Shown one piece after another: positions 2,180-31,200 of a stretch of DNA of 31,686 nucleotides. Numbering within the stretch: position 1 is the stretch's first letter; every line of letters starts with the position of its first letter. This DNA is from a virus. A program made the translations under genes and the position numbers. The stretch is from positions 1 through 31,686 of the IMG/VR virus record IMGVR_UViG_3300022934_002923; one strand, given 5' to 3'. The notes under the pieces were generated by a model. The model was not told where the DNA came from, ran no database searches, and worked only from the letters and a program-made list of their open reading frames with translations.

Positions 2180-2185
2180 TTTACT

Positions 2186-2214
2186 ACTTTAACATCTTTC
2201 CTTATTTTTGTCAA
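2186..2214 (-). promoter_or_regulatory. Weak sigma-70-like promoter candidate
   Basis: On the minus strand TTGACA (2214-2209) is separated by 17 bases from TAAAGT (2191-2186), a full -35 and a 4/6 -10 match. It lies in the only gap longer than 1 base within the accessory operon. The predicted start of transcription falls close to the ATG at 2179, so the message would have almost no leader. Chance occurrence in AT-rich DNA is possible. Confidence 0.3.
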
Positions 2215-4035: not shown

Positions 4036-4036
4036 G

Positions 4037-9416: not shown

Positions 9417-9987
9417 TAAATATCCTTGTTAAACTGTAAGTGTCAAACTTTCTTGCAGTATAAACACTTAATACCTGTTTTTCTGTTTCAAAAGGCATAC
9501 TAAACGGTACTACATAATAGTTATCGCTCATTGCTTGGCCGACATGGACAGAAAGAGTTTTATAAAGTATGTTAGGATCACCTTTAGCTGTTACACTAAA
9601 CAATATTGAAGAATTTAAATTAACACCTTTTGCTCTAATATTCTTTTTAAGCTGATTTCCTACTTTAATTTTCCAACAAGTATTTGGTATGTCTTGTACT
9701 AACTGTATATCAGCATCGTCAATTTCATTTTCTGGTATTTCGTATATAAAATCTTTAACTGATATCGAATCTAAAAAGTGTTCATATTTACTTTGCAGTT
9801 CTAATTCCTTTGTTTTAGGATTATACTGAACACTATAGTTACTTAATGGTTCTATACCTTTCTTTAAAGACATAACATCTGACAAAGGTACAGTAATATA
9901 AGTATCTTCTTTAGTAACTATATTTGATATACTAATTATTTTTCCGTTTTCTTTATTAAAAACTACATAAGCTACTCTGTCAGACAT
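9403..9987 (-). CDS. Unknown protein, 194 residues
   Basis: I do not recognise this protein. It is beta-rich, with an N-terminal strand pair (VAYVVFNKENGKIISISN), a polar middle with a short acidic stretch (PENEIDDADIQLV), and a C-terminal half with alternating hydrophobic strands (LYKTLSVHVG, YYVVPFSM). No signal peptide, membrane segment, metal motif or nucleotide-binding loop is visible, and only one cysteine is present. It overlaps its upstream and downstream genes by 16 and 14 bases, so it belongs to the operon. Its place between a GT8-like and a GT-A-like transferase suggests a helper or acceptor role, but a structural protein is equally possible. Confidence 0.7.
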   Translation of the reverse strand: MSDRVAYVVFNKENGKIISISNIVTKEDTYITVPLSDVMSLKKGIEPLSNYSVQYNPKTKELELQSKYEHFLDSISVKDFIYEIPENEIDDADIQLVQDIPNTCWKIKVGNQLKKNIRAKGVNLNSSILFSVTAKGDPNILYKTLSVHVGQAMSDNYYVVPFSMPFETEKQVLSVYTARKFDTYSLTRIFNEQD

Positions 9988-11682: not shown

Positions 11683-12028
11683 ACTCTACTAACTTCTCTA
11701 CACTTCGATTTGTTTTTAATTTTGTATACTCTGCATGATATTCATTTGCCGCAGAAAAATAACTGTCAACAAGATCACTTAAAAATTCTTCTAAGTTCTT
11801 AATCATAATCGGAGTTTCATTATCGTCAATTAATACAATATCTTCAGAATTATCTCTTTCAACTAACATGTTGACAAATGTAATTAATTCTTTAGTAATT
11901 GTAAACTGTCCGCCTTGATGATAGAAAACAGTTTGTTCACGATAACGTTCTTTTAGTACACGCTTTTGATTGTTTAGCGTTACCATGTAGTTAGAAAAGT
12001 CTAATGCTTTACTTAATCTTTCGTCCAT
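11675..12028 (-). CDS. Small unknown phage protein, 117 residues, first gene of the operon
   Basis: This 117-residue acidic protein begins with a helical, basic stretch (KALDFSNYMVTLNNQKRVLKERYRE), continues with two strands (TVFYHQGGQFTIT, then a helix ELITFVNMLVERD), a strand IVLIDDNETPIMI and a long C-terminal helix (DLVDSYFSAANEYHAEYTKL). No catalytic motif is seen. Proteins of this look occur beside tail genes in T4-like marine phages, but I cannot name a function. The start at 12028 has AGAGG 6 bases upstream and lies about 17 bases after the predicted transcription start of the promoter at 12052-12080. As the first gene of the accessory operon it may be expressed early. Confidence 0.72.
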   Translation of the reverse strand: MDERLSKALDFSNYMVTLNNQKRVLKERYREQTVFYHQGGQFTITKELITFVNMLVERDNSEDIVLIDDNETPIMIKNLEEFLSDLVDSYFSAANEYHAEYTKLKTNRSVEKLVEYE

Positions 12029-12051
12029 AAGAAACCTCTATTCTTTTGTAT

Positions 12052-12080
12052 ATTATACATGAATAGGTAGGCTATGTCAA
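12052..12080 (-). promoter_or_regulatory. Consensus sigma-70 promoter of the accessory operon
   Basis: On the minus strand TTGACA (12080-12075) and TATAAT (12057-12052) are separated by exactly 17 bases, a perfect match to the bacterial housekeeping consensus. The site occupies most of the 59-base gap between the stop of the structural gene at 12088 and the ATG at 12028, where AGAGG follows as ribosome site. Early genes of T4-like phages use host sigma-70, so this predicts early expression of the genes to the left, unlike the late motifs before the structural genes. No clear terminator hairpin is visible upstream of it. Confidence 0.85.
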
Positions 12081-12087
12081 GAGATAT

Positions 12088-13101
12088 TTAAAGTTGATCT
12101 GTTACTGCAATAGAAGGATTTGCAACTTGAACATTACTTCCAAATGCTCTTCTTGTTCCAATAGTAACTGTAATGTCAGCAGTGACATCTTCATCTTCTA
12201 ATGGACCAAATGGTGACGGTGGACTTGGATTTGGTCTGTCACCAGTATCGTTGTCTTCAAGTTGAACTCTAAATTGGAGTCTGGCTCCGTTGTCGCCGTC
12301 TGGTTGACGAACTTCAACACGATATCTATTTTCAGAATAAACTGCTGCCTGGCCTTCTTTTACCATTATTTCAGTAAATCCAGTTCCAGATAAATCATAA
12401 TTTCCATCTGAAGTTAATGTAACACCAGAAGTCGAACCTGATAATGTAGTATAGTTATATCCAAATTGTATTTGACCAGGGTTAGTAATCATTGTAATCC
12501 AGTCAGAATCTTTAGAACCACTTCCGTTTGATCCTGTAGTAGATATTCTTATTTGTCCGCCAGAGTTAAAAAAGTGTCGTCTATGATCAGCATCTGTAAA
12601 TGTACAAGTAAAAGTACAGTTGATATTACCATTCCACGAACTTGTACGAGTACTTGTTGCAATATCCGATATGTCGTCTTCACCGTCGTCAATATCAAAT
12701 CTATTTAATTCAAGCTCGTCCATTTTAGATAGATAATCATTAAATCCGCCTGTAATATCAGGATTATCAAATGTATAACTGCCGTCTGTTGCAAAAATTA
12801 AATCATCGCCTGTTTGATCAGCACCAATAACATCACCTTGAGCAATATTTTTTACTGGAATATTTTGACCAGTTTGGTGTGTCCAGGCTTTATTCATATC
12901 TATTCTTAAGTCAATCATCTGTTGTGCTGTGACTGAATCACCGTCTCCGGCGCCTGGCGAGGATGGGTTAGCGACTTGTGAACTGGTTACAGCTTGACCA
13001 TAACCAAAATTACCAGATCCGTTTCCTAAAACTTGTTCAATTCTACTTTGTAAACCGTTATATTGAGCGGCGGTAATTGCATCACCTACGTTAACTGCCA
13101 T
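12088..13101 (-). CDS. Virion structural-type protein, 337 residues
   Basis: This 337-residue Gly/Ser/Asp/Thr-rich protein has no enzymatic motif. The N terminus has VGDAITAAQYNGLQSRIEQVLGNGSG and GYGQAVTSSQV, a segment found in presumed structural proteins of marine T4-like phages. A helical stretch (TAQQMIDLRIDMNKAW) follows, then beta-rich sequence including FTCTFTDADHRRHFFNSGGQIRIS and repeated NG/SG turns. This composition fits a fibre or tail-surface protein. It follows the three tail-fibre genes in the same orientation and has its own late promoter motif in the 44-base gap before it, with AAGGA 9 bases before the ATG. A decoration or fibre-associated role is inferred; exact virion position is unknown. 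Confidence 0.72.
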   Translation of the reverse strand: MAVNVGDAITAAQYNGLQSRIEQVLGNGSGNFGYGQAVTSSQVANPSSPGAGDGDSVTAQQMIDLRIDMNKAWTHQTGQNIPVKNIAQGDVIGADQTGDDLIFATDGSYTFDNPDITGGFNDYLSKMDELELNRFDIDDGEDDISDIATSTRTSSWNGNINCTFTCTFTDADHRRHFFNSGGQIRISTTGSNGSGSKDSDWITMITNPGQIQFGYNYTTLSGSTSGVTLTSDGNYDLSGTGFTEIMVKEGQAAVYSENRYRVEVRQPDGDNGARLQFRVQLEDNDTGDRPNPSPPSPFGPLEDEDVTADITVTIGTRRAFGSNVQVANPSIAVTDQL

Positions 13102-13127
13102 AATTTGTGTTCCTTATAATATGCGTA

Positions 13128-13150
13128 CATTTATACTTCAAGTATTTATA
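13128..13150 (-). promoter_or_regulatory. T4-type late promoter motifs (TATAAATA and TATAAATG)
   Basis: The minus strand has a perfect T4 late -10 motif TATAAATA at 13150-13143, overlapping the stop of the tail-fibre gene, and a one-mismatch copy TATAAATG at 13135-13128. Both lie upstream of the 337-residue structural gene starting at 13101. Late promoters of T4-like phages need only this element together with the phage sigma and sliding clamp. Similar GATAAATA motifs precede two other structural genes here. Confidence 0.7.
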
Positions 13151-14660
13151 CCTTTAATACGCATTCAACTAATTTTTCTGATTCGTTGTCGTTTGATTCT
13201 AATGCTACACCTACAATGCTTCCACCGTTAATTGCTGTGCTTGCACAACCATCTTTGTCAACGTATACTGCATCACCTTTCTTAACTGCGCCTAATACAC
13301 GTACAGGAACACGCCCTTTAAGTGCAATTGACTGTCCGTCTAAATCTTCATTCATAATAAGTGCAGGTTGTGTTGAAACAACGCCCATTGCAATGTTTCC
13401 TACATTTGCAACATCAACTTCATGATCTTCGTGCTCGCAAACTGATACAACAGTTCCTGGAGTTAAATCACCTGGAGTTGTATATTTTTCTGCTAAGTCA
13501 GCAAATTTTGCAGTTAATGCAGTACCTCTAAACAAGTTTGCACGTAAATCGCCACTTGCATCGCGAACTGCTACAGTATTTGCAGAAATTGCAGTGTCAC
13601 CTGTTCGTGAATCACCGTTAACAACAAGAGCAGTTGCTTTTTCTGAAGTACCTATAAAGTTACTTGCATACACTCTATTAAATTGAGCAGTTTCTGCACC
13701 TAAGTCCATTGTTGCTATTGTTGCTCCGTCACCAGTAAATCCAGGTTCAAAACTATTTGATTTAACAACTAAAGATCCTGGAGTATCTGACGGTCTGTTA
13801 GCATCATCAGTATTTAAAGTAAGTGCTCTAAGGAAAATTTTTGTAGCTGTATTTTCAATTTTAACTTCATTATCATTGTCAACAAACACACGTAAATCGT
13901 TTGCATCACCAACTGCAAAACCGTTATCGGAAAATTCTACAATTTCTGAAAATACTGTAGGCGAACCAACTGACGAAACAACATATTTGTCTGCGTCAAT
14001 TCCGTTAAGTTTTTTAGCGTTAGATGCTGTTCCCCAGAATATATGATCTGTAGATGTAACACCAGTAGTAGCAGAAGTATTAATTAATGTAATACCTTTT
14101 TTAACAAGAGTAAATCCAGGAATTCTGTTCTCTGCATCCGAACTATCAATAGTAAACGTTTCATTAGAAATAATATGAACAACAGTATCGTTGATAACAG
14201 AAACAATAACAGGGTGATTTATATCGTTTGTGTCACGAACAGTTCTTGACTGCATTTGAGTTACGCCGTCGCCAGCATCTTGTGGACCTACAAGAACAAA
14301 GTCTGAACCATTATATGCATATAATTGCTCGTTTGTAGTATCCCACCAAAAGTCGCCTTGTGTTAAGCCCGATGGTGCAGTGTTAAGGACTTCTGCGCCG
14401 CCTGTAGTACGCCATTTTGTGCCGTCAAAGAATTTAAGTTTACTTGTACTTGTATCAAACCAAACTTGACCGCTAATTGCTTTAGGTGGTGCTGTTGATC
14501 CTGCAAAATTTTCTAATAAGAAAACAAAATTTTCATTTTGTATTTCACCGTAACCAGCATAGTTTTTACCAACTAATTTAATGTCAGTAGTCTGGTCTAA
14601 TGTCCCGTCCTCAACTACTGTTAAGACCGTTCTATTGTATCTGTCGATAGTATATGCCAT
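13146..14660 (-). CDS. Tail fibre paralogue with peptidase-G2-like C terminus
   Basis: This 504-residue tail-fibre protein begins with the module shared by all three tandem fibre genes: GKNYAGYGE...ENFVFLLENFAG...PPKAISGQVWFDTS..LKFFDGTKWR at 30-95, then W.D...QLY.Y.GSDFVLVGP and, after IPGFTL, FWGTASNAKKL. The middle is a beta-rich shaft. The last 118 residues (from 387, ADLAEKY...PGTVVSV...MGVVSTQPALIMN...GRVPVRVLGAVKKGD) resemble the C-terminal domain known in fibre proteins as peptidase_G2-like, an autoproteolytic or trimer-tip domain in some phages; self-cleavage here is not shown. A GATAAATA late motif at 14686-14693 and a GGGG ribosome site precede it. It probably forms a receptor-contacting or accessory fibre. 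Confidence 0.82.
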   Translation of the reverse strand: MAYTIDRYNRTVLTVVEDGTLDQTTDIKLVGKNYAGYGEIQNENFVFLLENFAGSTAPPKAISGQVWFDTSTSKLKFFDGTKWRTTGGAEVLNTAPSGLTQGDFWWDTTNEQLYAYNGSDFVLVGPQDAGDGVTQMQSRTVRDTNDINHPVIVSVINDTVVHIISNETFTIDSSDAENRIPGFTLVKKGITLINTSATTGVTSTDHIFWGTASNAKKLNGIDADKYVVSSVGSPTVFSEIVEFSDNGFAVGDANDLRVFVDNDNEVKIENTATKIFLRALTLNTDDANRPSDTPGSLVVKSNSFEPGFTGDGATIATMDLGAETAQFNRVYASNFIGTSEKATALVVNGDSRTGDTAISANTVAVRDASGDLRANLFRGTALTAKFADLAEKYTTPGDLTPGTVVSVCEHEDHEVDVANVGNIAMGVVSTQPALIMNEDLDGQSIALKGRVPVRVLGAVKKGDAVYVDKDGCASTAINGGSIVGVALESNDNESEKLVECVLKV

Positions 14661-14685
14661 CTGTTCTAACCCCTGTTATATTTAA

Positions 14686-14693
14686 TATTTATC
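14686..14693 (-). promoter_or_regulatory. Late promoter motif GATAAATA
   Basis: GATAAATA on the minus strand is one base from the T4 late consensus and fits the looser NATAAATA form of marine T4-like phages. It lies in the 46-base gap before the tail-fibre gene starting at 14660, 26 bases from the ATG. The same octamer occurs at 19234-19241. Confidence 0.5.
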
Positions 14694-14706
14694 GCTTTTG
14701 TAAATA

Positions 14707-16563
14707 TTACGCTGTTCCGATCCAAGACCAAACACCACCTGTTACCCTAAATGTCATAGTTTGTCTGGATGGTGTTAAATTTGCAAGTGCATCAACTGGA
14801 CTAAAGTTAACGTCTTGTACTACCGACTGTGCTGTTGAATCGTCTGTCAGCACTGACAAATAGCTTTTACTCATAGCAGATTGTACATCAATACCTGTAA
14901 CTTCAACACCTGTATATGATGTACAATGAATTCTTGCAACAGTATTTTCTTCTTTCTCTGATGCTGGGAAAAGTGTCTCTAAAATACCAATTACATCTGT
15001 ATAAGGATTTCCAGCACTTGGAGATGCTAATCCAGTAGTATCTAATGCCATTACTACAGGTTCTGAGTCAACAACCCTATCAACATATGCCTTAGTTGCA
15101 GAATCTTGTGGATCTGTTGGATCATTAACATCTTTAATTTGTGTATTTGATACGTTCATTGGACCAGATAAATCAAATGTTAGACCAGTAACTGATGTAC
15201 TAATAGTATTTCCATCTAAGTTAATGTTGTCTACATTAAGATTAACTAATGTGCCAATTTGTGAAAGACCACTTGCTAATGTTATACCTGATCCTAATTC
15301 AGTAGAACTTGCTATAAGTGTATCATTAATTCTAAACTCATTTCCAGCTTCAAGATTAAAATTTAAATTTGAATCAAATGACGTTGTACTATTATCGTAA
15401 ACAAACGTCTTGTCTCCTTCTGATGATTTAATAATAATGCCTGCGCCGTCTACTCCTGCATCATTCTCTATTGAACCGTCTGACACTCCTAATTCAATAT
15501 TAATATCTTCAACTTGTAAGTTTTGTACATTAACATATGTGGCATCACCGTTTACTGTTAAGTCGCCATCAATTATTACACTTGACGATGTGTGCATTGT
15601 TCCTGCAACATCAAGTGTATATTCTGGCTCACTTTTAAAAATGCCCATACGACTATTAATTGCATCAATTTTTAAAGCATCAGTAAACTGGTTTCCGCTT
15701 CTTGTTCTAATAGCAACATCAGTTCCACTTTGTTGTGTTTCAAGTGTAGTAGTTGTACCTACAATTTTAAGTGTCATATATTCAGTATCAGCAATACCAA
15801 TACTTAAACCTGCACTATTTTTAATTTTTATAGAACCAGTTGTCTCACCATTTTCGCCTGTAGGTAAAAAGTCAGCTGATGAGTATGCAGTTCCGTCTGT
15901 ATCAACAAGAGATCTTGCTTCTGAAGCTGTTCCTCTATACCAAAAATTTGAATCTACTAAATTAAATCCTTGACTGTACTTTTGTCTTTTTGGTATAACA
16001 ATATCATCTTCATCATCAGGAAATCCAGGTATTTTGTTTTCACCTGCAAGTAAAAATTCTTCTTTTGTAATTACACCAAATAATGTACCACCAATCCATA
16101 TTTTAAGAACAACACGTTCACGTGCTGAAATATCAATAACTGATGCTACTTCAAATCCAGTTTGTCCTTGTGCCGCATCATATTCAGGACCTACAAGTAC
16201 TAAATCTGTACCGTCAAAGAAATACATTTTATTGTTTTCGTTGTCAATCCAAATATCACCTGCAACCATATCTGGTTGAGTATTTGATACTATTGGTCCG
16301 CCAGCAGTTCTAAAAGTACTTCCATCATATAATTTCAATCGTGCTTGGCCAGTATCATACCATAATTGACCTACTAATGGTTTGCCTGGAGTATTAGTTC
16401 CGGCAAAATTTTCTACCATTTTAATAAAGTTTTCGTTTATAAACTCGCCAAAACCTTTATAATTTTTACCAACTAACGTTATGTCAGTAGTGGAATTATC
16501 AATGATACCATCTGCTAATTCTACTAAAAGTTCGCCATCAGTTTTATTTAATTTATAGCTCAT
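14707..16563 (-). CDS. Tail fibre paralogue, 618 residues
   Basis: This is the second of three tandem fibre genes. The N-terminal module is recognisable (GKNYKGFGEFINENFIKMVENFAG, GKPLVGQLWYDTGQARLKLYDG, GDIWIDNENNKMYFFDGTDLVLVGP, then IPGF and FWYRGTASEARSL). The shaft has repeated beta turns, including EYTLDVAGTMHTSSSVIIDGDLTV and DINIELGVSDGS, ending in DPTDPQDSATKAYVDRVV at about 480, a stretch typical of phage fibres. The last ~130 residues are a beta domain ending VTGGVWSWIGTA with no known tip signature. Only 3 bases separate it from the preceding gene, so these two are translated from one message. It presumably trimerises, as phage fibres do; receptor is unknown. Confidence 0.8.
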   Translation of the reverse strand: MSYKLNKTDGELLVELADGIIDNSTTDITLVGKNYKGFGEFINENFIKMVENFAGTNTPGKPLVGQLWYDTGQARLKLYDGSTFRTAGGPIVSNTQPDMVAGDIWIDNENNKMYFFDGTDLVLVGPEYDAAQGQTGFEVASVIDISARERVVLKIWIGGTLFGVITKEEFLLAGENKIPGFPDDEDDIVIPKRQKYSQGFNLVDSNFWYRGTASEARSLVDTDGTAYSSADFLPTGENGETTGSIKIKNSAGLSIGIADTEYMTLKIVGTTTTLETQQSGTDVAIRTRSGNQFTDALKIDAINSRMGIFKSEPEYTLDVAGTMHTSSSVIIDGDLTVNGDATYVNVQNLQVEDINIELGVSDGSIENDAGVDGAGIIIKSSEGDKTFVYDNSTTSFDSNLNFNLEAGNEFRINDTLIASSTELGSGITLASGLSQIGTLVNLNVDNINLDGNTISTSVTGLTFDLSGPMNVSNTQIKDVNDPTDPQDSATKAYVDRVVDSEPVVMALDTTGLASPSAGNPYTDVIGILETLFPASEKEENTVARIHCTSYTGVEVTGIDVQSAMSKSYLSVLTDDSTAQSVVQDVNFSPVDALANLTPSRQTMTFRVTGGVWSWIGTA

Positions 16564-16566
16564 TGA

Positions 16567-18597
16567 TTATACCCTGCCTGTCCAAATAATATAATTCATC
16601 GTTAATGTTGGATTCATAATATTCAACGGAATACCTAATTCTTCTGCATCAGTTAAAATACCACCACTGTTTGGTAGAGCCTGGCCGTTGCCGCTTGCAT
16701 TAGGTGCGTCATAAACGATAGCTTCGTTATCATTTGGTGTGCCGCTAATATCTCTAATGCCATAGTACTGATCGCCGCTGTCGCCTCTCATATCATGCTT
16801 GTGTTCTGGTAAATTTTCAACTGCAATATTTTCTGTTTCTGATCCGCCAATCTGTCCAACACCGTCTGCATAATCTGCGGTAACAGTATCTGCACTTTGG
16901 CCACCCATGTTATCTGCACCAAGAGGCAATCTACCTCTTAAGTCTGGGACTTTAAAAAATCCTGCTGTAATTGTAGCACGAGCTCCAAAAGAATATCCAA
17001 TAGCTTCAAATAGTAATCCGTATTCTGAAATTCTTACTTCACTTCCGTCACATAGTAACCAACCCTGTGGAACTGCTGAACCTGCATATGGCAATACAAC
17101 CCCTGGCGGATTAGTTGGCACTGAATCTAATAAGTTACGTCTTGAAATTTTATATAATCCAGTATTACCTGTAGTTCTGTTAATAAGTAATTCGTCGTCA
17201 ATTTGAGATTCAAACGTTTCATCCTTACCAGAAACAATCTCATTTGAAATAATTGTTTGGAATGTTTTTAACGATCCGCCGGTTTGTCCGTCAAATACTA
17301 CATCTTCTGTTGTTGCAACGTCACCTGCAATTCTAAACGAACTTGCAGATGTTAATTTATTTGCTGAACCTGCAATACCTGATACAGTACCGTTAACATT
17401 ACCAGTTAAGTTACCAATAAATGTAGTTGAATAAATGTTACGCCATTTAGAAGCAGGTGCTCCTAAATCTCTTGTGTTATTGCCATCTGGAATTGTTGGT
17501 CCTAATGTAGTAATTCCTAATACTTGTGTATTGCCGCCAACATTTAAATTTCTTGCAATACCTACGCCGCCTTTAACAATAACACTTCCTGTATTAATTG
17601 TAGAACTCTGTGTAGTGCCATTTACAAATAAGTCTGAATCTGTTTGAATATTTCCAATAACATCAAGTGCTTCGTCTGGAGCAAGATTGTTAATACCTAC
17701 ACGCAAATTAGAATCAACACGCAAAACTGTACGAGTTGAACCAGAATTTTTAACTTGTAAGTCAATATTAGAGCCTTCAATTTGGTGTCTAATAACACCA
17801 GCTTGGCCGTCAACACCTACGTTTAGTGCCGCATCTGTACCAATAATTAAACCTGTATTATTTTGTACTGTTACAGGAAATAGCGTAGTACTACTTACAT
17901 CACCACGTAAAAAGTTACCAGCGTCAACAGGAGTATTATTAACAATTAAGTTTTCTGCTTTTTCTGCTGTGCCATAAAATTTAGGAGATCCGCCTTCTCC
18001 TGTAAAATCTCTTGTGGATAAATTTATACCTGGATTAATAACTGTAAATCCTGGTATAACTACTTTAGGTGTAAAGGTATCTGCAGAAATAATTGCTACA
18101 GGTTGTGCTTCAACTTCTACCTGTAAAACTGTATAATCCTGATTATCAACACCTGTTAATGTTAGAGGTGTTGCACCTGTTGCTAAACCATCACTAAATG
18201 TAGGACCAACAAGTACCCAACCAGAACCTGAGTTTAAATAAAGTTGCTGATTATCTGTGTCAACCCAAAGATCACCAGTTTGAGAAAATGCAACATCTGG
18301 TGCTGTCGGAGCTCTATTTAAACCGCCTGCTGGAACCCAAACTGTTCCGTCATATACTTTAAGTTGTTCTGCTCCCGGAGTAGTATTATACCATAACTGA
18401 CCTTCTGTTGCTCTTGGAGGTTCTGTTGCACTTGCAAAGTTTTCAAGCATATGCAGGAAGTTTTCAGCAATAGCACTACCATATGATGTTACGTTTTTAC
18501 CAGGAAATTTAATTGAAGTACTTTGATCAATAGTATTATCAATTACAGTAATAGTACCATTGTTTGCTTCATCTGTATATGGAATAGTATATGGCAT
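16567..18597 (-). CDS. Tail fibre/short tail-fibre protein with collar domain
   Basis: This 676-residue protein is the first and longest of the fibre trio in transcription order. The N-terminal module (FPGKNVTSYGSAIAENFLHMLENFA, GQLWYNTTPGAEQLKVYDG, GDLWVDTDNQQLYLN, then IPGF and FYGTAEKAENL) matches its two neighbours. After a beta shaft comes a phage tail collar domain at about 498-570 (PYAGSAVPQGWLLCDGSEV...FFKVPDLRGRLPLG), as in T4 gp12 and many fibre tips, followed by NLPEHKHD, a His pair that in gp12-like tips binds metal. It ends NPTLTMNYIIWTGRV, a terminal strand common in collar-domain fibres. GAGG lies 8 bases before the ATG, and the previous gene ends with tandem TAA TAA 3 bases upstream. 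It probably binds the host surface. Confidence 0.87.
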   Translation of the reverse strand: MPYTIPYTDEANNGTITVIDNTIDQSTSIKFPGKNVTSYGSAIAENFLHMLENFASATEPPRATEGQLWYNTTPGAEQLKVYDGTVWVPAGGLNRAPTAPDVAFSQTGDLWVDTDNQQLYLNSGSGWVLVGPTFSDGLATGATPLTLTGVDNQDYTVLQVEVEAQPVAIISADTFTPKVVIPGFTVINPGINLSTRDFTGEGGSPKFYGTAEKAENLIVNNTPVDAGNFLRGDVSSTTLFPVTVQNNTGLIIGTDAALNVGVDGQAGVIRHQIEGSNIDLQVKNSGSTRTVLRVDSNLRVGINNLAPDEALDVIGNIQTDSDLFVNGTTQSSTINTGSVIVKGGVGIARNLNVGGNTQVLGITTLGPTIPDGNNTRDLGAPASKWRNIYSTTFIGNLTGNVNGTVSGIAGSANKLTSASSFRIAGDVATTEDVVFDGQTGGSLKTFQTIISNEIVSGKDETFESQIDDELLINRTTGNTGLYKISRRNLLDSVPTNPPGVVLPYAGSAVPQGWLLCDGSEVRISEYGLLFEAIGYSFGARATITAGFFKVPDLRGRLPLGADNMGGQSADTVTADYADGVGQIGGSETENIAVENLPEHKHDMRGDSGDQYYGIRDISGTPNDNEAIVYDAPNASGNGQALPNSGGILTDAEELGIPLNIMNPTLTMNYIIWTGRV

Positions 18598-18600
18598 TTA

Positions 18601-19215
18601 TTAAACCTCGTTAAAACCTGATAATGATTGAATTCTTACGGTATAATCTACTTGGATTAATCTATTCAATGATTTTTGCACAGGATGGAAAATAACATGT
18701 GTAAGCAGACGTCCTGTACCTTGTGTTGAATAAGCCCTTAATCCCAGTTCATCAAAAATAAATGAACTTGCTTCGTCAGTTGCATTATCAAATGCATCTT
18801 GACCTGCTGGCTCTCCGTAGTCTAATAAACAAGTAACAACAATATCTGTGTAGTTAGTACCGCTAATGTGTCTTGTTTCAATTTTATTTCTAATTGGATC
18901 AATATTGTTAACACTTCTGTCATCTACAACTTTTGTATAAGTTTGATTATACAAACTTGCATTTGTTCCAGTACTGTTAGGAGTAAGGTACGTAATAATA
19001 CCTGTAGGATCCACTGATGTTCCTCCATTACCAAAGCTCATTTCGTATATCCAGCCGCTACCATTATTAGCTAATGATTCAGCTAACGAAATACTCATGT
19101 TTTCGTAGTGGATAGCATTACGCTTATCTACAATAACTTTTCCTGATTCTGGGTCAGTTATCTTAATATGACCTTGTATCAGTGTTCCATTAAAATCTTT
19201 AAATTTGTCTGCCAT
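18601..19215 (-). CDS. Virion structural-type protein, 204 residues
   Basis: This 204-residue protein is beta-rich with no catalytic motif. The N terminus contains FNGTLIQGHIKITDPESGKVIVDKRNAIHYENM, followed by WIYEMSFGNGGTSVDPTG, a polar loop region, and a C-terminal half with DIVVTCLLDYGEP and LLTHVIFHP...RLIQVDYTVRIQS strands. The FGNGGTSVDPTG turn and overall layout are usual in tail or baseplate proteins of T4-like marine phages. It follows the giant gene after 21 bases, with a GATAAATA late motif overlapping that gene's stop and AGGA about 8 bases before the ATG. It is placed between a giant tail/baseplate-type protein and the fibres, so a connector or baseplate-attachment role is plausible but unproven. 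Confidence 0.72.
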   Translation of the reverse strand: MADKFKDFNGTLIQGHIKITDPESGKVIVDKRNAIHYENMSISLAESLANNGSGWIYEMSFGNGGTSVDPTGIITYLTPNSTGTNASLYNQTYTKVVDDRSVNNIDPIRNKIETRHISGTNYTDIVVTCLLDYGEPAGQDAFDNATDEASSFIFDELGLRAYSTQGTGRLLTHVIFHPVQKSLNRLIQVDYTVRIQSLSGFNEV

Positions 19216-19233
19216 TTTATTTTCCTGCTATAC

Positions 19234-19241
19234 TATTTATC
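19234..19241 (-). promoter_or_regulatory. Late promoter motif GATAAATA
   Basis: GATAAATA on the minus strand overlaps the stop codon of the giant gene and ends 19 bases before the ATG at 19215. It matches the NATAAATA form of late promoters in marine T4-like phages and is identical to the motif at 14686-14693. Confidence 0.5.
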
Positions 19242-22200
19242 GTGGTAGCTCAGTTGTCTTAGCACGTAAGAACTTAGCAATGTTAGAATCGCTATTTGCT
19301 ATAGTAGTTCCTCTGTCAGACCATGTTGTACCGATCTTTCTAATAATAGTTACTGTTGTCCCTTCTGGTGGTGGAGTTGTTAAACGCACATATGCTCCTA
19401 TATTTTTATTTACAGCATACTCTGCCTCTAAGATTATGTCCCCTTCTGGACTATCTTGTGCATCGTAATTATACTTACTTATCGGAGTTTTACGTAAACG
19501 CCTACCAGCTACGAAAACTTCAATATCCTGTGCTTCCCAATATTCTTCTGGAATAGTGTCTTTATACCAATCTGTTGCACTTGCTGGGTTAGGAATAGGT
19601 GCAAATGGTAATAAAATTTGAACATATTTAATACCTCCAGGAACAACAAAACTTGTTTGTGGAGTATCAATAGGTACAGTTGTAAACGGATTTACAACAA
19701 TCAAGTCATATGATCCAACAGGTAGTGCAGGAGTTACAAAGGTTAATTCATTTTCTGAAATAAATGTTGCTTCGCATTTTGTTGTTCCAACGTAAATTTC
19801 TACCCTATCTGTAAATCCTGTTCCAATAACTGTTGTTACTTGTCCGCCTAATGGAAATGCCGTATTATTATTAAAGTCATATGTAATACTGGTTACGCCC
19901 ATTCCTGGGCTGTTTTCATAACTGTCGCTTCCAGTACTAAATCCAGAAGATGTAACTGTAATTATTTCTTCTTCGTCTTTGTATGGTAATGTAGTATCAA
20001 CACCTTGTTCCATAAGCATTGTGCCAGCGTCATAAACATCTTTAACACCTGTTCCAAGTGTTCCTCTGCGAAGTTGTAATAGTTCGTTACCTACTTTCCT
20101 AAAGTATTCAATTCTCTCACCCTCAATAAAGATAACGCCTGGATATTTTGCTCCAACTTCAGGCTCCGGTAATCCGTTACCGTCAACAACTTTAATTGTC
20201 TTATCATACCAATTTAATGGCTCTTCTAAATGATAAATTTCTTCAAGACGTTTATAATGAGTTCTATTAAGAATGTCTTTAAACTGACGCCAGCCAAACT
20301 TATCAACTACTGTATTATCAGAAAAATGTAATACTTGTAGTTTGTCACCTTCGTTTGGTTGTTGAACTAATTTAACATAACGTCTATTTGAAGTAATACT
20401 ATAATCAACACTTGGAGATAGTAAATCGCCGTTTTTAACTACCCAAACATATTCTGCGTCTCTTGCAGGTTTACGTAATGTAATATAGCCTTTTTCAAGT
20501 AGTTTAAAATCGTAATATAATTTAGTACCAGGTGTAGTTTCAGTTTTTTCTGTAACTTCAAAACTTTGTCTTTCAAAACCTTGACTATCGTGATTACTAA
20601 ATTGGTAAACTGTAATAGTATCATCTTCGCTAAATGCATTATCTAAGTTTAATACTTTTGGCGTTTTAACATATGTATTATCTTGTTCATAATACCCCAT
20701 TCTGTATTCACCCGAAGTAAGAACATATACTGTTAATTCATCACCATCTTCGCCAATACCTGCGGCAAGTGTAACAGTGCTACCTGGCTGCGATTGAGGA
20801 GGTACATTTGGATTAAACGATCCTGCGCCTTCAAATGTCCAGTTTTGTAAATACTCAAGTTCAATACCGTTTAGGTATACTGCCAAGTCAAAAGAGTTAA
20901 CTGTTGCAGTTGGAATTTGTGTTAAATCTAATTGGTATTCTCTTAGTGCAGTAGTAACTTCAAATTTTTGACTGTAACCAGGATCTAAAATCTTATTGTT
21001 TACTTTAACTAACACATAAGCACTTTCTGGCTGTTGTTCAAATGGTGCTTGAGACAATTCGTATTGTGTTGTGCTTCCATCGGCAGTAAATGTATCAATA
21101 TTTACAGTACTGTATTGCTGGAATATTTCAACGCCGCCTACTGCTAACATCATTTGTATAATTGCGCCATCTTTAGGCGGCGTAGCAAATCTTACTACAA
21201 AATTACCACTATTTTCGTATGTGTCATCGGACTCGACTAAAGTTATGTCTACAACTTCGCCATCTACAGTTACTAATCCGTTTGCATTATCTTCAAATCT
21301 TGCATTAGTTAAGAAATCTATTGTAGTTCCGTTACCAATAAATGTATCAATATCTAAAATTGTTGTTGCACTAACTCCAAGATTAATAATATTAATTCTT
21401 GAATTATCTGCAGGCGGATTAAAGAAAATTACTTGATTAGTTGCAACGTCTACTGTATAATCATTTGTGTTCATTACTGTGTAATCAACTTTAACAAACA
21501 AGTTGGCAAATTGACCTATTGGTGTTCCTATGTCAAAATTAGATTTTACTCCATTACCAATATAATTTCTACAAGTAATTTGACTACTACCACCAGATGG
21601 TTTTTCGTAAACTTGGATATCTACAGTGTCTAATGTTTGTCCTGGAACAATTTCTTCAGGACCTTTAGATGTTGTTGGCGTAACAAATCCGTCGCCGTCA
21701 ATATTAATATCTGCAGAATCTAATCCTGTAGCTGTTCCATATATTAAATTGCCGCCATCAATTGATGTGTCAAAACTATCTGGATCAGGAATAAACGATC
21801 CGTCTGAAGTAACTTTACGAATTACTATTGCAAGTCTTACTTCTCCTGTTTGTAATTCAGTATCTAAACCTAAATCATTAACATCAAGTTCAGTTTCTTG
21901 ATTTCCTTGTATTGGTAGCATATTTGCATACGGATTATCCTGTGTACCTACTGTAGAGCCGTCCCATTCAGAATCATCAACTCTATAATTTGTTAAGACT
22001 TGCCCATTAGCATCATATGCTGTTCTGTAAACATTATATTCTATTCCTTCTTCAAGCGGAGTGTTTAAAGGTAATGTATTACTAACATTAATTGGTGTTC
22101 TAACAGAGCTATCTGCGCCAATTAGCGTACTATCTTCTCCATATATTTCATCTTCTGTTGAAAAATTAGAATCAAAGTCTGCTTGCAATGTTACAGTTGT

Positions 22201-25200
22201 TTCGGTAGATCCAATTACTTTACCTGATGCAAGTGTATTGTTTTGTGTTAGTACTTCATTAGGTCTAACACTAATTGGCGAATCAAATTCTATTATTACT
22301 GTTTTAAATAAGAATATTTCATCTTCAAATGCAGTGTCAAATACGTCCCAACCCTGTGTCATCCACGGTGCTGTATTCCAGCCAGTTGTTCCGCCAAAAT
22401 CAAAAGATCTTACTTGAACTCCGCCGTAGTCAACGCCGTCCATTAGTTGTCCTAATGTTTTACCAAAGTTATCGCCAGTTGGTTGATATGCTAAATTAAT
22501 ACGATCTTGTGCTTTTAATAAATTTATATCTTTAGAATATTCAATTCTAATGTTTGAATTTGCAACTGGTGGATCAACAAACTTTAATTGACCCAAGTAT
22601 CTATCATATCCTTTAGATTTATCAAGTTGGTTAGAATATGTATAACGTCTTGCAAGGACTTCGTCGTCATTTTCAAAAACACGAACAGTTGTTGTTCTTA
22701 AATCCATAGGCCAATCTAAATCAAATGTAATTATAGATCCAGATGCTACAAAGTTTTGTATTGTGTCTAAATTTACAAATTCATATGTTCCAGATACTCT
22801 ATCAAATTTTATGATTGTTTTTATACTTCTTACAGGACTATTTCCTATAATAGCATATGCACTTGCTTCTCTTCCTCCAGGAGAAATAGAACCATTTAGT
22901 GTAATCTTTGGCGACTCAAGATATCCTTCTCCTTGATCAAATACTCGAATTCCGCTAATAGAACCATTTTTACCTAATGACGCTTTTGCTACTGCACCTT
23001 TATTTCCTTCAATTGTAACAGTAGGTGGTGATGTATATCCTTGACCTGGATCATCTAATTCAATTTTAACAACTTTATATCCAGAATTATCAATCCAGTT
23101 TTTATTTGGATAATTTTCAAGTTCTTCAGGATTGTCTGCAACAATTCCTGTATTATAAGATTTAACTCTTAATGGTTCAATTCCGTCTGATGTTAAAACG
23201 TATCTTGCAGGTAAATCAAAATCTGATACATTATTTCCTGCAACGTCAGTACTTTCGTAAGAGCTTAGATATTCTCTAATTTTAGTCTTAAATGGTTTAA
23301 CTTCTTTAATATATTCTTCATAACTTGGAAGATTATCGTTCTGGAAGTTTACTTTTTGTTCTAATTCACCAACATTATGTTTTGCTTTTATAAACGACGA
23401 TTTAAATGCCCAATCAACATAATTTTGTTCTGCAAAAACATAACGCAAACTTGCAAAAAACAATTTATTATATTCTAATGCTAATTCTTCAATAAAGACA
23501 TTGTCTTTAATAGTGTTTAAAATAATTCTTGTTTCTGTTGTTGGTAGACTATCAAAAGTTAAGGCATCATAATTAGTAGTGTCAAATCCAACTTTAGAAT
23601 CTTCAACATTATATAAAGTTTCTTTAAATTGTATAGTACCGTTTTCTCTACCAATAGTTTTATAATTTACTGAATAGTCTTCGCCTTCTTGATTATTAAT
23701 CTTTTCAAGCAGTAGCCAGCCGCCTGTACCTACTGTTTGTATTTTTACAATATCACCGATACTATCATTTAGTCTACTTAAATCATATGATTGTTCAATT
23801 ACTGTATCAATTTTTGTAAATGAATTGTACCCCGGAGCATACCAGTCAATATAATCCCAATACTTAGTTACATCGTATGCTTGACTTTCAACTAAAATCC
23901 ATTCTTTAGCAACAGTATCTCTTTCGTATAATGCCCATTTGTTATTTAATGATTCGTCTGCTTTAACTAATACCGTATAACGTCTAACTGCTAATCTTGT
24001 ATTATCTTGTGCATAGTTAGTTCCAGCATTTTCAATAATAACATCTGTAACAGTGCCTTGATTGTTAATTACTGTTTTAATTTCTGCATCTTTACCTGTT
24101 CCTAAAACTGTAACTGTTGGTTCTTGCAAATAGCCTCGACCGCCGTTAGTAATGTTTACACGAACAATTTTTCCGTTTTCGACAACAGGTTCCAGTGTTG
24201 CTTGTTCTGCTTTAGCAACACCAACAAATTGTAATTCAATCTTTGTATCTACACTTCTATCCCAGACCTTAGATGACTTAGTTGGCTCTGGATCTATGTC
24301 TGTAAGATTAGTAATATCTTTATCATCACTAATTAGGTTGTCTTTTAAAACACTATTAATTCTTTCAATTGTTTCTTTAAGTGCTTCTTCTCTATTTATA
24401 AACCATCCTTGTCTTGGTTTATTTAAAATACCATATTTTTCTTTTGCACTTAATTCCGGAGCAGGTACTTGTCTATTTTTCTCATCGTAGCCAACTAAAC
24501 TATCAAACCATTTTCTTTGAATGTCAGTACTTGGAAGACTTGTCTCTAATCCTTCGGTAATAATTTGATATTGATTATGTATATTAATATTTTGATCTTC
24601 AATGGTCCAATATTGTATACTTAATGCAATATCTCTATCACTTAATATGTTTTCGCAGTTAAATACGGCAAATTCATTTTCAGTAATTAGTGCAATAAAC
24701 TTATAGCCTTCATTTGCTGGGTCTCTAATTAATCTTGCAACATCTCTTGCAGTTGTTTTTCTATCTTCAATAGCAGGTAATGTAGTTTTATTTCTTACCC
24801 AGTAATAATAATAATTAGTAAAGGTACCTGATGCAGTATCATATACACGTTTAAGAACATAAGCATCGTCGCCTGATCTTGTTTTGCCAGTTATACCTTG
24901 CTTCAAACCTTCATTTGTACCAGATTTTTCATCCCATTCACTTGGAAGATATTTTGATTTTACCCATTCATAAACATCGATAGAATTTTGATTTGAAAAA
25001 CTTGAATTCCAATTATTTGAACTAAAGATTACATTTCCTTGATAAGGATTTCTAAACTTAGCATTTGTTAAATCCCACCATAGTTGACCTTCTTGGGCTT
25101 CTCCCCAGCTATTTGTTTTGTCAGTATTTGGAGCAATACCAGTATTATATGTTGCAGGATCATATGGTGTTTTATATGTCAACTCTTGTTCTGCTGGTCC

Positions 25201-28200
25201 TGCAATTTTTCCTTGTAGTACATCTATATAATCAATATACTGAAGAATAGTATTTGTTTTTGTATTGTATAATACAGCACGTTTAATTTTGCTAACATCT
25301 ACAGGATTTTTAGTTACACGAAGATTTTCCCATATTGTAGTATTATCGTCTAATCTATAATCAACTACTGCGCCAGTATATATGCCTGACTTAAATGTTG
25401 GTAGTCCTGCATAAACATGGTTTTTTCTTAATAATACACTACGTCCAAATAAACTAACGTTATCTCTATCAAAATCAATAGTTTGTGAATATAACATATA
25501 GTCATTTAGTCTTTCATATACTCTAATGTTTCCTGTATCTTGAGTTATATTTTTAAAAGTAGTAAATTCTTTGTCAAATGTAGTAACTGGTTTTTCATTT
25601 CCAACACTGCTTCCGTCAAAAGTAGTTGTAATTAACGAATCTCCGTTAGCAGAACCAATAATAAGTCTATCACCATCAAAGTCAACTGACCATCCAAACA
25701 ATTCTGTTTTATCATCTTTTGGACTATAAAGTTTTTGTGACTCTAAGAAAGATCCATCTTGTTGTTTATAAACATAAACAGTACCATGGTCTAATCCTTC
25801 ATCATCATTGTATGGTGCGCCTACTGCAATTAATTTTCCATCATTACTTAATGCAATATTACTTCCATATTGAGTTAATTTACTTGGTGATAATATTGTT
25901 TGATCTCTATAAAATAGTCCATTTATATTACGATAAATTTCTACAGTATTTTCAGCATTTTCATTGTATGTTGTTGTTATAACAATTACTTCACCGTCTT
26001 TGCTTATATCATAAGCTCTTGCAAATTCTAATAAATTTTCGTCTTCAATAATTTGATCTGCATCTGTTACAATGTTTGCTGATCTATTTGGAATAAATCC
26101 TAAGTAATTAACATTTTGATCTAATTCATTCCAATCTCTTACATCAAATGTTCCGGGTCCATTTAGTATCTCTGCCTGATATAACTTGTTATTATAATAA
26201 ACAATTTCTTGTGGATAATATAATGTTGTATCGTCAAATGGGCCTCTATAATTTTTATCTCTTGCTGATTCCCAGCCGTAGTCAATACCGTTAAATTCAC
26301 CATTGTTAAACATATAAAGTCTGCCAGGATTTGTATTTGTTCCGTCACCTGTTTGTTTAACAATTAGTCTATAGAATTCGTTATTATTTGAAACTTTTAA
26401 TTCACTACCTAAATATTGATTGTTGCCGCGTTCTGTAACTGTAAACGAATTAAGTTTTACAAATGCTCCAATACCTTTTCTTTCGTAGATAGAAAACATT
26501 CCTTCTTTTGTAAGTCCACTTTGCACACCGTCAATAGATGCAGGAATGTTATAAATTAATTCCCAATCGTTATTGGCTATAGTAGGAATGTTTGCAGGAC
26601 GAGCAATACCTAATACTGTTTCTTCTCTATAGAACCAATATTCGTTATCTAAAATAGTGTCTTCTTTTGTGGTTACATCAGCATCAACATCTTGAACATT
26701 AATAGTTGCAGAGTTATCAAACACCACAAGTTTACCAATATTTGCTTCATCTAACGGAAATGCTCTTTGTTCAATCTGACCAAAAACACGAGATCCCGAA
26801 ATTGGATCATAAAGTGCATCTCCAGAACCATCTGCTAAAAACTCAATTTCTCTGTTTTCGCCAAATAAATTACCAACTGCCCAGTTACCTGTAACATTTT
26901 TAACATATATTCTACCATTATTTGTATCAAATCTTTGATAAAACATAACTTCGGCTGTTCCAAGATTAGTAACATCTCTAACAGTAAGTCCAACTTTAGG
27001 TTCAATTGGAATTCCGCCTAAGTTTTTAGTTATTCTAAAATCAATGTATCCATCCCACACATCATATATTGTGTGCGTTTTATTCATTTGCTCAACGCCA
27101 AGACCAATATCTTCTGGATTATTAAAATTACCTGTATTATAATTAGGCAAATCATTATAGAAGAAATCAACAGTATCATTACTTTGATCTCCTGGAGCAA
27201 CTACATTTAACACATCCGTTAACGGCTTAGGTGCTCTTGCTACCCATAAAGACGATTCAAAGTCATCTGTTACCCCGCCTGGGCCAGGATTACCTCGATA
27301 ACTTAATGTAGTAATTTGACTATGAATTGAATCTAAACTTGAAGATATATCAGTTTGATAATTTAAAATATTATAGTAAAATCTATTTGGATCAGGATTA
27401 CCAGACGGAATAACATCAGTGTAAACTAAACCTCGTCCTACATCAGAATTTATAGAACTTACAAGATAAGGTGCTTTTTCAACTCTCCAGTAACCGCCCC
27501 ATTTTTCGTCTGCATCGGCTACAGTATCATTTGGTGCAACAGTAACATACTCACCAACAAATTCACCAATGCTTGTAGTTAACGATCCAAAGAATCCAAA
27601 TGTACCGTTTTGATTTTTAATATAAATTGTTGCTTTTGCACCGTCATTAAACGTATAAGAAACTTCACCAAATCCAGTTTGTGTTTCTACAATTTGACCT
27701 ACTAATGGAATAGTATTACTATTTTCAACATAAAGAATACTATCAATTTTTTCAGAAATAATATGTCCAGCAGTTAAAAATTCAGCACTTAAATCAGGTA
27801 CTTGATCAGCAAAAGGTAAAACTTCTTGCAATGTGTCAATATCTTGGTTTGCTTGGGTTAATTTATTCCAAACTAATTTTACTGTATCGCCAATTCCAGA
27901 CCCTTCATACATATCAAACGGTGCTTTAATTAAAAAGTGATCTGTATTAATATTTGTGAAAGGATAATCACCTGTGAGTAGCGCAGGTTTAATATCGGCG
28001 TTACTTTCTATTTGGCCCAAGTCTCTTAATATTTCAGGTACTGATTCAAAACTGCCAAAATTAATGTTTACTTCGGCGCCTTCGATGTCTTTTGTTGCTT
28101 GCCAATTATTATCTTTGTAAGTAACAATATCAAATTGGCTATAATCTTGAGAGCTATCATAATCGCCTTTAAATGTACTACGAACATTTGATGCTTCAGG

Positions 28201-31200
28201 AGAACCAACTATTAAATATCTTCCATTATCAGTAACTGCAACTGATGCTCCAAATTTTTGATTAGAATCTGCAATTCCTAACTCTGGTTCTACAACTTGA
28301 TTTAGCGAGTAAGCACCTGAGTTACCAGCTCTAACATAAACAAAAACTTTTCCGTCATCGTCATCTGGCGAGCCAACTACTAAAAGTGTATTATTATCAC
28401 TTGCGTCTATTGAAATCCCATATTGATTACGTAATCCAGACTCAGTATTTGATATAACTTGATGCTCTTCAAATGAGGCTTTCTGCTCTATAACTCTCCA
28501 TTTTTTATCTAAATCTTCATCAATCCAAATCTTTCCAATATTTGTTTTAAAAGTTTGGACTAATTTAGAAGCTTCGTCAAAGTCTTTTACACGCACACTA
28601 ATAAACCTTGAAATAATCGGATTAGTTATTGTTTCTGACTCTTGAGCAGATGTATTATTAACTTTAATTTTATTATTAAGAACTTGAGTAACTTTTGCAA
28701 GTTCTTTAACCTCTACTCCTTCAGCATCGGTATATTCTATACCAATAATGTCGCCTTCGCTAAACATTGTAGGCAATGTTTTAAATACAAATTCTTTTTC
28801 TGCACTTACAGATTCTAAAACAATGTCTGCACTTGTATACAGATAGACATCCCATCCTAATCCAACATTTCCTGCCCAAACAATATCTCCATATGATAAT
28901 TTAGTATAATCAATGTTTGTAATATTATCAAATGTTGAAACTGTAAAGTCAACGTCTTCTGGATTAACATAGCCGCTATTTTTTGTATATGTTTTATCAA
29001 CATATGTTGTTGGGAACGGTTTATGATCATAATCGGTTGGACGTAAAAATACTTCAAACGGACGTATTCTATAAACTAAGTCTGTTTCGTCACCTCGAAT
29101 TTGATTTACTAACTCTACACTTTGAGGCTGTAATTTAAACTGATCTTCATCTAAAATAAATTCAACTTCTTCAAACCCTTGTGCCGCACCGTATTGACCT
29201 TGTTTAATTGCCCATTCTTCATAAAACTCTAAACTGTCTTTGTCTGCACTGCCAAGAACATCAAAAAGTTTAGTAAGAGCGTTCTTTGAACCTTTATCTT
29301 GGATCATTCCTTGATAGAATTTGTACTGACTAACATCATCATTAATAATGTTTGCCAAATAGTCACGGTTTTGATATCCAATTAGATGCTGTGCAAATTT
29401 TTGTTGTTCAACATCAAAATTATCTGTATCTAAGTCATAAAAATCAGCAAACTGATTAGTTTTATATTCAAAGTTTGGAATTAGACCCATTTCGGGTTTT
29501 TCAGACAACCTAACCCATTCTGAAGCTACAAATACTTCTGTTCCTGTTACTTTATTTTTTGCACTATAATAAAATTCTTTATACTTTACAAGGTCTCCAA
29601 TTGCATAATCCTGCCATGGTTTCCATTCAGTTATTTTGGCGTCATCAAAAACAAACCCAGGAATATTTAAACTTCCGTCCCAATTATCTGTTCTATATCC
29701 TAAAACTTTAAGTCTTTGTTGTCTATAACCAGGTTCTTGATCGTAAATAATATCGCCAAATACTGTTTTATTATCTATAATCAAAGCATGTTCTTTTTGT
29801 ACTAACGACAAGCGAACAGAATAAATTCCGTCTTCTGTTGCTTTAGGTTTAATAATAAATTCTTTTGGATTTTCTCTTGTTAACGTAACATTTTCTGGTT
29901 GTAACTTTTTGCCGTCAGCTTTTAATAAACTATATCCATAAAATGTATCGTAAATATCATCAACTACAGAATATTCACTAATAAATTTAATTTGAAATGC
30001 TCCCGGACTTAATGTAATTACACTACCAGCATTCCAATTCTGTGTAGTCCAAAACATAAATTCTTTTGCACTTGTTTGCCAATTAGAAACAAATTCGTCT
30101 TTTGCTGAATAAAAATCAAATACAAAACCTTGTTTTTCTAACCAATAACCGTATCCTAATAAAAAGTCAACTAAATCTTGTATATTTTTAAACACAGTAC
30201 CGTATGGCAATCTTTCTGAGTTGTTTTTAAATGCTTTTCTAAAATACGCTTCGCGGCCGCCTTGTACTGGTAATTCAGGAATTTTTACAAATTTAGTTTC
30301 GTCAAATTCTTGACCGCTGTCGTGTGTTTCTACAACTCTATAAAAACTATTTTGATGCTGTACTATTGCACCTGCAACATAAGTTTTTCTACTATCCCAT
30401 TCAACAAAACTTGCATTTATTCCTCCAACATTAATAAGAGGATCATTTTGTAAGGGTATTGCAGGATTATATGTAAAATACGGCGCTACTTGATCGTAGC
30501 CTCTTACAATAAAACCAAAACTTTGTTTTTCTATAATTACACCGCTATATGTAATACTTTTTACAGGTGAACTTTTGTTTAAGAAAATATTATAGTTTTC
30601 TTCTGGTACAAAAACATTACCTTTATTTAAAGGTGTTCTTGAATCTAATATTAGTTTAAATTTATCTTTGGTAGTAAAACCACCAATTTTAAATCCAAGT
30701 TGGTTATTAATTGTTGATAAACGATTTTTATAATTATTAAAAGTAGTAGTAACACTACTTGCCAAATAATCGTAAACATAATTAATTAAACCAGATGTAA
30801 ATACTCTGTTAGTTTCATTAACGTCATTTGGAAAAACAAGTTTCTGTAAAGTAATATGTTCATTAGGACCAAGATAATTTCTTTGACCTAATAAATTTTT
30901 TGTCTGTCTAACTCTATCAAATATTGACGCAAATGTTCTTGCTGGCTGGTTTAAAACCAAAGCAGTAATTAATGAAAATGGGTATTCAGAACCTTTCCTC
31001 CAAGCTGTTTCAATTGGACTATGATCTCCAAAAACAAAATTACGATTTAACTCAGTTGTGTTATAACTTTTAACAAAACTACTATAAACTGGACTTAGTA
31101 GATTTCCGTCTTCGTCTACTGGTATATTATTTGTTATATTATTCCTTGCAAATTTAGGAACACTTACCCCTGGAGTATCTGGAAAACGCACAATGCCTTT

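Follow-up and report, generated by a model that had tools for sequence, protein, structure and literature searches.

The C-terminal end of the phi29 protein gp12 is an autochaperone that is released after trimerisation. The mature form gp12* has been modelled up to residue 691 (PMC6542822). In the phages CBA120 and RaK2 several fibre proteins assemble via shared N-terminal domains, and the adsorption complex of RaK2 consists of gp098 and gp526-534, with gp098 and gp531 being essential for attachment (PMC10253068). In Xanthomonas phage XacN1, according to its paper, homologues of tail fibres went undetected and the phage appears to lack such fibres. Here we analysed the IMG/VR virus record IMGVR_UViG_3300022934_002923 (31,686 bases, in the following 'the window'), in which three neighbouring genes, F1, F2 and F3, encode putative tail-fibre proteins. 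In minus-strand reading order the window holds a giant gene (4110 amino acids, aa), a 204-aa gene, F1, F2, F3 and F4. The likely reading is that F1, F2 and F3 are paralogues forming a fixed set, that each makes a tail-fibre or tail-tip protein, probably as a trimer, and that the phage is large, contractile-tailed and related to Atu_ph07, RaK2 and PA5oct. The triplet is not named in the titles and abstract openings of the open-licence PubMed Central literature that was searched.

The three proteins are homologous over their N-terminal part. BLASTP between the paralogues yielded E-values of 3e-39 (F1/F3), 3e-34 (F1/F2) and 1e-44 (F2/F3), and profile-profile alignment (a single comparison per pair) connected residues 1-331 of F1 to 1-343 of F2 (E 3e-61), 1-421 of F1 to 1-363 of F3 (E 5e-59) and 1-291 of F2 to 1-283 of F3 (E 2e-57). 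A first-pass annotation, made from the sequence alone, had described three tandem paralogues with a common base of some 250 residues; the paralogy and the sharing were borne out, and the extents of the profile alignments place the length of the homologous base closer to 280-330 residues. A block-by-block comparison of the profiles gave matches in every pair for residues 1-57, for the GQLW and IPGF regions and for the beginning of the shaft. Residues 1-57 by themselves scored E 1.6e-20, 7.7e-25 and 2.4e-28; for the IPGF region the E-values ranged from 6.5e-13 to 8.7e-12. The sole internal tandem repeat is the middle block (GQLW...GDLW), a short beta module whose first and second copy match each other with E 3.6e-08 to 1.4e-13. 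Since the blocks that flank this repeat are non-repetitive and significantly matched, a base that is mere low-complexity sequence or convergent repeat was rejected, in line with what the annotation had assumed. The last blocks (F1 331-676, F2 331-618 and F3 346-504) do not match one another (probability <1% in all three pairs). The last block of F1 does match residues 210-345 of F3 over 33 columns (E 8.1e-08), and the shaft similarity of these two proteins thus extends beyond F1 residue 331. In the architecture that we propose, the base opens with a short, helix-containing N-terminal arm, followed by the two tandem beta modules, then a beta domain and finally the beginning of the shaft; it would most likely dock all three proteins to the baseplate, beside the product of the gene at 18601. 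The giant protein carries a GQLW-like motif of the base repeat near residues 2152-2173 (BLASTP E 0.16, non-significant). The record of Synechococcus phage S-N03, taken as a whole, has nine weak matches to the base profile; all are confined to the GQLW part, and the beta module by itself therefore seems present in other tail proteins.

A scan with the 204-aa protein recovered at least 597 related IMG/VR stretches. The best 80 of these, which reach 261,806 bases, were kept and form, together with the window, a comparison set of 81 records. The base profile found 233 copies in 80 of the 81 records: in 71 of them three or four copies directly follow the 204-aa gene, and in the remaining 10 the contig ends at most 132 bases past the last copy (in L049 just past the 204-aa gene). 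Ten large uncultured contigs (85-262 kb, completeness not established) that were searched as a whole contained exactly three strong base matches each. In a tree of the 233 copies (quick method, midpoint root) every position in the row, here called a slot, had a clade of its own, with supports in the Shimodaira-Hasegawa-like approximate likelihood ratio test (SH-aLRT) of 99 for F1, 98 for F2 and 98 for F3 together with F3x, a fourth paralogue with its own tip that occurs in six loci (L006, L007, L009, L010, L013 and L078). A recent duplication was rejected because of the copies in 71 of the 81 records and the single clade per slot; judged from the base tree, the triplication is older than the uncultured group. 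The duplication followed by tip divergence that had been proposed earlier is therefore supported, with the amendment that the duplication is ancient. A more careful tree, of 19 loci and 13 base copies from isolated phages, gave supports of 99/95 for F2, 83/87 for F1 and 91/81 for the F3 side. Three points weigh against the picture of a fixed, old triplet: i) the tree that includes isolated phages is weaker, and the program warned of few columns and long branches; ii) it places the rows of XacN1 and Stenotrophomonas phage RAS14 inside F1, the first copy of L077 outside it and the RaK2-type rows in F3; and iii) the fibre count covers the 31,686-base record alone, and the genome may encode other fibres elsewhere.

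Some loci deviate in their layout. F3x and three small genes precede F3 in L006 (6589-9918), and also in L007 and L013; one of the small genes in L006 (8950-9447) weakly resembles 2-oxoglutarate (2OG)-Fe(II) oxygenases. In L059 (3196-5219) F1 and in L080 (5393-7361) F2 are short open frames of 161 and 194 aa, respectively, with long gaps before the next paralogue; they may reflect a broken gene or an assembly error and were used as they stand in the records.

A megablast search of window positions 10000-22000 against phages gave no match. The 204-aa protein matches 60 phage records, best Sinorhizobium phage Phosso (56.7% identity) and Agrobacterium phage Atu_ph07 (54.6%), and in 9 of 13 isolated-phage regions this protein and the giant protein both have homologues, near a base-bearing gene. 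In Atu_ph07, Phosso, Pseudomonas phage PA5oct, Salicola phage SCTP-2 and Vibrio phage 2.275 the giant gene lies upstream and is encoded by the same strand; in RaK2, 121Q, BF and CBB it lies further on, on the opposite strand. By these neighbouring genes the virus is linked to jumbo phages of the Atu_ph07/RaK2/PA5oct type. The number of tandem base copies in isolated phages ranges from one to six: one base-bearing gene follows the 204-aa homologue in Atu_ph07, Phosso, 121Q, RaK2, BF and CBB, and equally in SCTP-2 and 2.275, the latter having a second copy elsewhere. Atu_ph07 and Phosso have in common with the window the giant-gene homologue upstream (31% and 28% over ~800 residues), the same base (E 1.1e-42 and 1.1e-40) and the F3 type of tip, but they have a single strong base copy each instead of three and no F1 or F2 tip was seen in them. 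PA5oct likewise has the giant and 204-aa homologues and two base genes in a row, with an F3 tip on gp359. It differs in that these two copies are accompanied by three more in a second array elsewhere, in that the end of gp358 clusters with no F1 or F2 tip, and in that no base was found in gp360. The PA5oct record marks gp357, gp358, gp359 and gp360 as found in virions by electrospray ionisation tandem mass spectrometry (ESI-MS/MS) and annotates gp358 as T4-like gp10.

The ends of the three proteins differ, and their identities correspond to the collar, plain beta and peptidase-G2-like ends of the annotation. In F1 the Collar domain PF07484 reaches 57.4 bits in the window protein (curated cut-off 24) and is present in all 32 orthologues that were scanned (E <=0.01), whereas Gp10_C was matched weakly in 4 of the 32 (best E 0.0026). 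F1 ends in a collar domain, as T4-type short fibres or pins do. F2 matches PHROG families of uninformative function (phrog_6002, 'virion structural protein', E 2.2e-16), its Pfam matches are weak (Phage_T7_tail in 9 of 32 orthologues, best E 7.5e-05), and its model, with a mean predicted local distance difference test score (pLDDT) of 71.2, is mostly beta. No confident fold match was found for the F2 tip (the top Foldseek match, E 1.1e-03, and the top Z, 5.6, both fall on the shaft region); it would be a beta tip with its own job. For F3, Peptidase_G2 (PF11962) matches were obtained at E up to 1 with 17 of the 32 orthologues, the lowest E being 7.8e-08, and the predicted fold agrees.

The AlphaFold2 model of F3 has a mean pLDDT of 68.9 and a predicted template modelling score of 0.30; in ten-residue blocks from 391 to 500 the pLDDT is 86-92, save for 64 at 431-440. 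The best VIA-align match of residues 388-503 is the C-terminal fragment of phi29 gp12 (3gqh_A; Z 13.9, root mean square deviation 2.2, 107 residues, 21% identity). A387|D388 of F3 aligns with S691|D692 of gp12, residue 692 being where the released fragment 3gqh begins, and in the profile alignment Y/F-A-D-L-A-E of F3 falls on W-S-D-F-A-E of gp12. D-L-A-E stands at the phi29 cleavage point in 21 of 21 aligned sequences, and 65 of the 66 F3 proteins have the motif D-x-A-E, which is absent from all 76 F1, 70 F2 and 6 F3x proteins. The remainder of F3 is unrelated to gp12 as far as tested. Given the likeness to gp12 and the D-x-A-E at the cleavage point, the F3 end is probably cut off and is most probably a self-removing chaperone instead of a receptor tip. 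It would drive the folding of the trimer and then cut itself between A387 and D388, so that mature F3 would end near residue 387; an exact self-cleavage site is thereby predicted.

The fold allows another explanation: instead of cleaving itself off, the F3 end would persist on the virion as a stable, cement-like beta barrel. Capsid cement proteins have the same fold (VIA-align Z 8.9-12.5), including the capsid decoration proteins of HFTV1 (Z 12.5) and Sf11 (Z 10.8), and Foldseek lists capsid chains first (Borrelia BB1 procapsid, E 6.3e-04, and a T1 capsid chain, E 8.7e-04) and 3gqh fourth (E 1.2e-03). The only Pfam matches of the window F3 are two cement families, both below cut-off, and PF11962 is not matched by this protein at E up to 1. 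Several further points speak against a self-cleaving chaperone: the mean pLDDT around the predicted site is 47 (residues 381-390), the sequence alignments at the cleavage point are weak (E 0.012 for 3gqh and 0.22 for full gp12), the residue before the cut is Ser in phi29 and Ala in F3, and when seven F3-type proteins were scanned one by one at E up to 0.1, PF11962 was matched by two of them, with scores of 16.1 and 18.1 bits against a cut-off of 25. On the other hand, gp12 is the best VIA-align match, the D-x-A-E is all but invariant at the gp12 cleavage point, and Peptidase_G2 is the family that is matched by most F3 members (17 of 32, versus 10 and 3). We therefore consider the cement-like barrel unlikely and retain the autochaperone.

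The tips were clustered by single linkage (BLASTP E 1e-4) on their final 160 residues; those <380 aa or truncated at the end of a contig were excluded. Each slot had one main cluster, with 76 of 76 F1, 67 of 70 F2 and 65 of 66 F3 tips, and no F1, F2 or F3 cluster spanned two of these slots. Tip exchange between the slots was rejected because of these slot-pure clusters. The three other F2 tips are of another type, and the odd F3 (L082), an F3x-type copy that was retained in the identity and distance counts, clusters with the six F3x copies. The F3 tips cluster with the tips of Atu_ph07, Phosso and PA5oct gp359. Identities were compared for the 65 records that have all three closed genes of set length (the other 16 of the 81 do not): the median pairwise identity was 0.61 for the base and 0.43 for the collar end of F1, 0.59 for the base and 0.33 for the tip of F2, and 0.65, 0.31 and 0.50 for the base, middle and tip of F3. 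The F2 tip and the F3 middle evolve faster than the bases, so these parts may bind receptors. The distances of base and tip are correlated in each slot (Mantel test on 59 of the 65 loci, after removal of near-duplicates; Spearman 0.61 for F1, 0.48 for F2 and 0.40 for F3, with 0 of 499 permutations reaching the observed value in each case). For the window itself the nearest neighbour is L004, whichever of the nine regions is taken. Across the whole set of loci the nearest neighbours agree between regions in only 0.42-0.73 of cases, and the distances of F1 base and F3 tip are not correlated; some exchange or recombination between lineages is therefore likely.

Selection was estimated with the method of Nei and Gojobori (NG86) on nine pairs. 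The ratio of nonsynonymous to synonymous rates (dN/dS), an average over a region that often involves a saturated dS (>1), was 0.02-0.40 in all regions where it was computable. It was low in the bases (0.02-0.12) and in the 204-aa gene (0.02-0.07) and highest in one F3 tip (0.40), the F3 middle (to 0.31), the F2 middle (to 0.30) and the F2 tip (to 0.29). These values point to purifying selection on the tips in the nine pairs, with room for a few selected sites; strong diversifying selection across whole tips was rejected on the same values.

The annotation had taken the three tips for alternative receptor-binding ends that confer several host specificities on one platform. This idea draws on the different tips on one base, on the greater variability of the F2 tip and the F3 middle (0.33 and 0.31, versus 0.59-0.65 for the bases), on the 3 of 70 F2 tips of another type and the fourth copy with its own tip in six loci, on the five or six copies in related phages and on the likely exchange between lineages. 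It is nevertheless hardly probable, considering that the tips are kept within their slot across 66-76 loci, that base and tip distances are correlated, that the pairwise dN/dS is <=0.40 and that one of the tips looks like a removable chaperone. Three fixed fibre paralogues with separate jobs fit the data better than interchangeable receptor specificities, and the host-range story is replaced by a testable division of labour.

The fixed order also bears on the possibility that the three proteins build one heteromeric baseplate ring or branched fibre, like T4 gp10/gp12 or CBA120, with a mainly structural role and with receptor binders encoded elsewhere. The strict order with a median F1-F2 spacing of -1 base (65 loci), the conserved tips, the Gp10_C matches and the annotation of PA5oct gp358 are in agreement with it, as is the RaK2 adsorption complex, whose genes (gp098 and gp526-534, PMC10253068) are all different from the base-bearing ones. 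The pins and short tail fibres of T4 (gp10/gp12) resemble F1 in the collar end and in the weak Gp10_C, but no sequence link of the base to them was found. The branched tail spikes of CBA120 and RaK2 are, like the window proteins, multiple fibres assembled through common N-terminal domains (PMC10253068), but here no sequence link of the base was found either, no depolymerase domain was recognised in the window and the tips are kept within slots. Searched against the sequences of the Protein Data Bank, the base profile had a best E of 8.9 and did not match the heads of T4 gp10 or CBA120, a miss that excludes nothing. In the models of F3 and F2 the base had weak fold matches to small beta domains alone (VIA-align, Z <=4.7), including the collagen XVIII trimerisation domain and the Major Tropism Determinant; T4 gp10 and CBA120-type head domains were not recognised among the matches listed, which again excludes nothing. 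The faster evolution of the F2 tip suggests contact with the outside. We hold a mainly structural heteromer to be somewhat unlikely. What tells against the set of trimeric fibres that we prefer is that trimers, baseplate docking, F3 cleavage and receptor contact are steps that we infer.

Assembly of several fibres through common N-terminal domains is a known principle, described for CBA120 and RaK2 (PMC10253068); the present case is a variant of it, through its base family, its fixed set of tips and the end of F3. More tentatively, the base could represent a family of baseplate adapters, as yet without a name, in jumbo phages of the RaK2/Atu_ph07/PA5oct type and in their many uncultured relatives, in which the copy number (one to six in a row) would set the number of fibre kinds per virion, one member would self-cleave a phi29-type chaperone before or during docking, and the missing fibres of XacN1 would be supplied. 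The base module ties the uncultured group (at least 597 related stretches) to cultured jumbo phages and offers candidate fibre genes for XacN1, a phage whose paper had recognised none. The region analysed in XacN1 (4522-13578) contains six tandem base-bearing genes, ORF237 to ORF232, none of which has a Pfam match at E <=0.01. RAS14 (10674-19351) also has six, one of them annotated as D-alanyl-D-alanine carboxypeptidase, and four of their ends match XacN1 genes. In neither base-array stretch was a homologue of the 204-aa or the giant protein found.

Features of the window, with positions, strand and the evidence on which each is based (ORF, open reading frame)
Feature	Position	Strand	Basis
F1, 676-aa tail-fibre paralogue, collar-tipped	16567..18597	-	ORF, Pfam, BLASTP
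F1 shared base, ~residues 1-330	17608..18597	-	profile-profile alignment with F2
F1 internal tandem GQLW/GDLW beta modules, residues 59-131	18205..18423	-	first against second module copy, E 6.1e-09
F1 Phage Tail Collar domain PF07484, residues 499-558	16924..17103	-	57.4 bits, cut-off 24
F2, 618-aa tail-fibre paralogue, mostly beta end	14707..16563	-	ORF, PHROG, BLASTP, model
F2 shared base, ~residues 1-343	15535..16563	-	profile-profile alignment
F2 internal tandem GQLW/GDIW beta modules, residues 58-128	16180..16392	-	E 5.8e-10; strands in model
F3, 504-aa tail-fibre paralogue, Peptidase_G2/phi29 gp12-like end	13146..14660	-	ORF, BLASTP, Pfam of orthologues, fold
F3 shared base, ~residues 1-283	13812..14660	-	profile-profile alignment
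F3 internal tandem GQVW/GDFW beta modules, residues 57-127	14280..14492	-	E 3.6e-08; strands in model
F3 predicted intramolecular chaperone domain, residues 388-504	13149..13499	-	VIA-align to 3gqh
F3 predicted self-cleavage site A387|D388 in motif F-A-D-L-A-E	13497..13502	-	aligned with phi29 gp12 S691|D692
Conserved 204-aa gene directly upstream of F1, phrog_11259, presumed baseplate part	18601..19215	-	E 4.2e-73
Giant 4110-aa virion structural protein gene, upstream; frame open to window end	19237..31569	-	phrog_10938 E 1.5e-220
F4, 337-aa gene after F3, without shared base	12088..13101	-	ORF, BLASTP, base profile

The part of the window after the fibres (123-11682) contains enzyme-like genes, including two radical S-adenosylmethionine (SAM) proteins, a 2OG-Fe(II) oxygenase and a nucleotide-sugar epimerase. 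Fourteen genes downstream of F4 have no match in the 13 isolated-phage regions at E 1e-5, and neither the oxygenase nor the radical SAM gene located at 538-1536 was matched in the stretches of the relatives, many of which stop short of these genes. Each of the three genes closest to F4 is shared by 44-47 of the 80 relatives (the best 80 of at least 597). The closed relatives of F4 itself measure 267-370 aa, with two exceptions (985 and 1280 aa), and F4 is present twice in some loci; F4 may therefore be a more variable tail protein.

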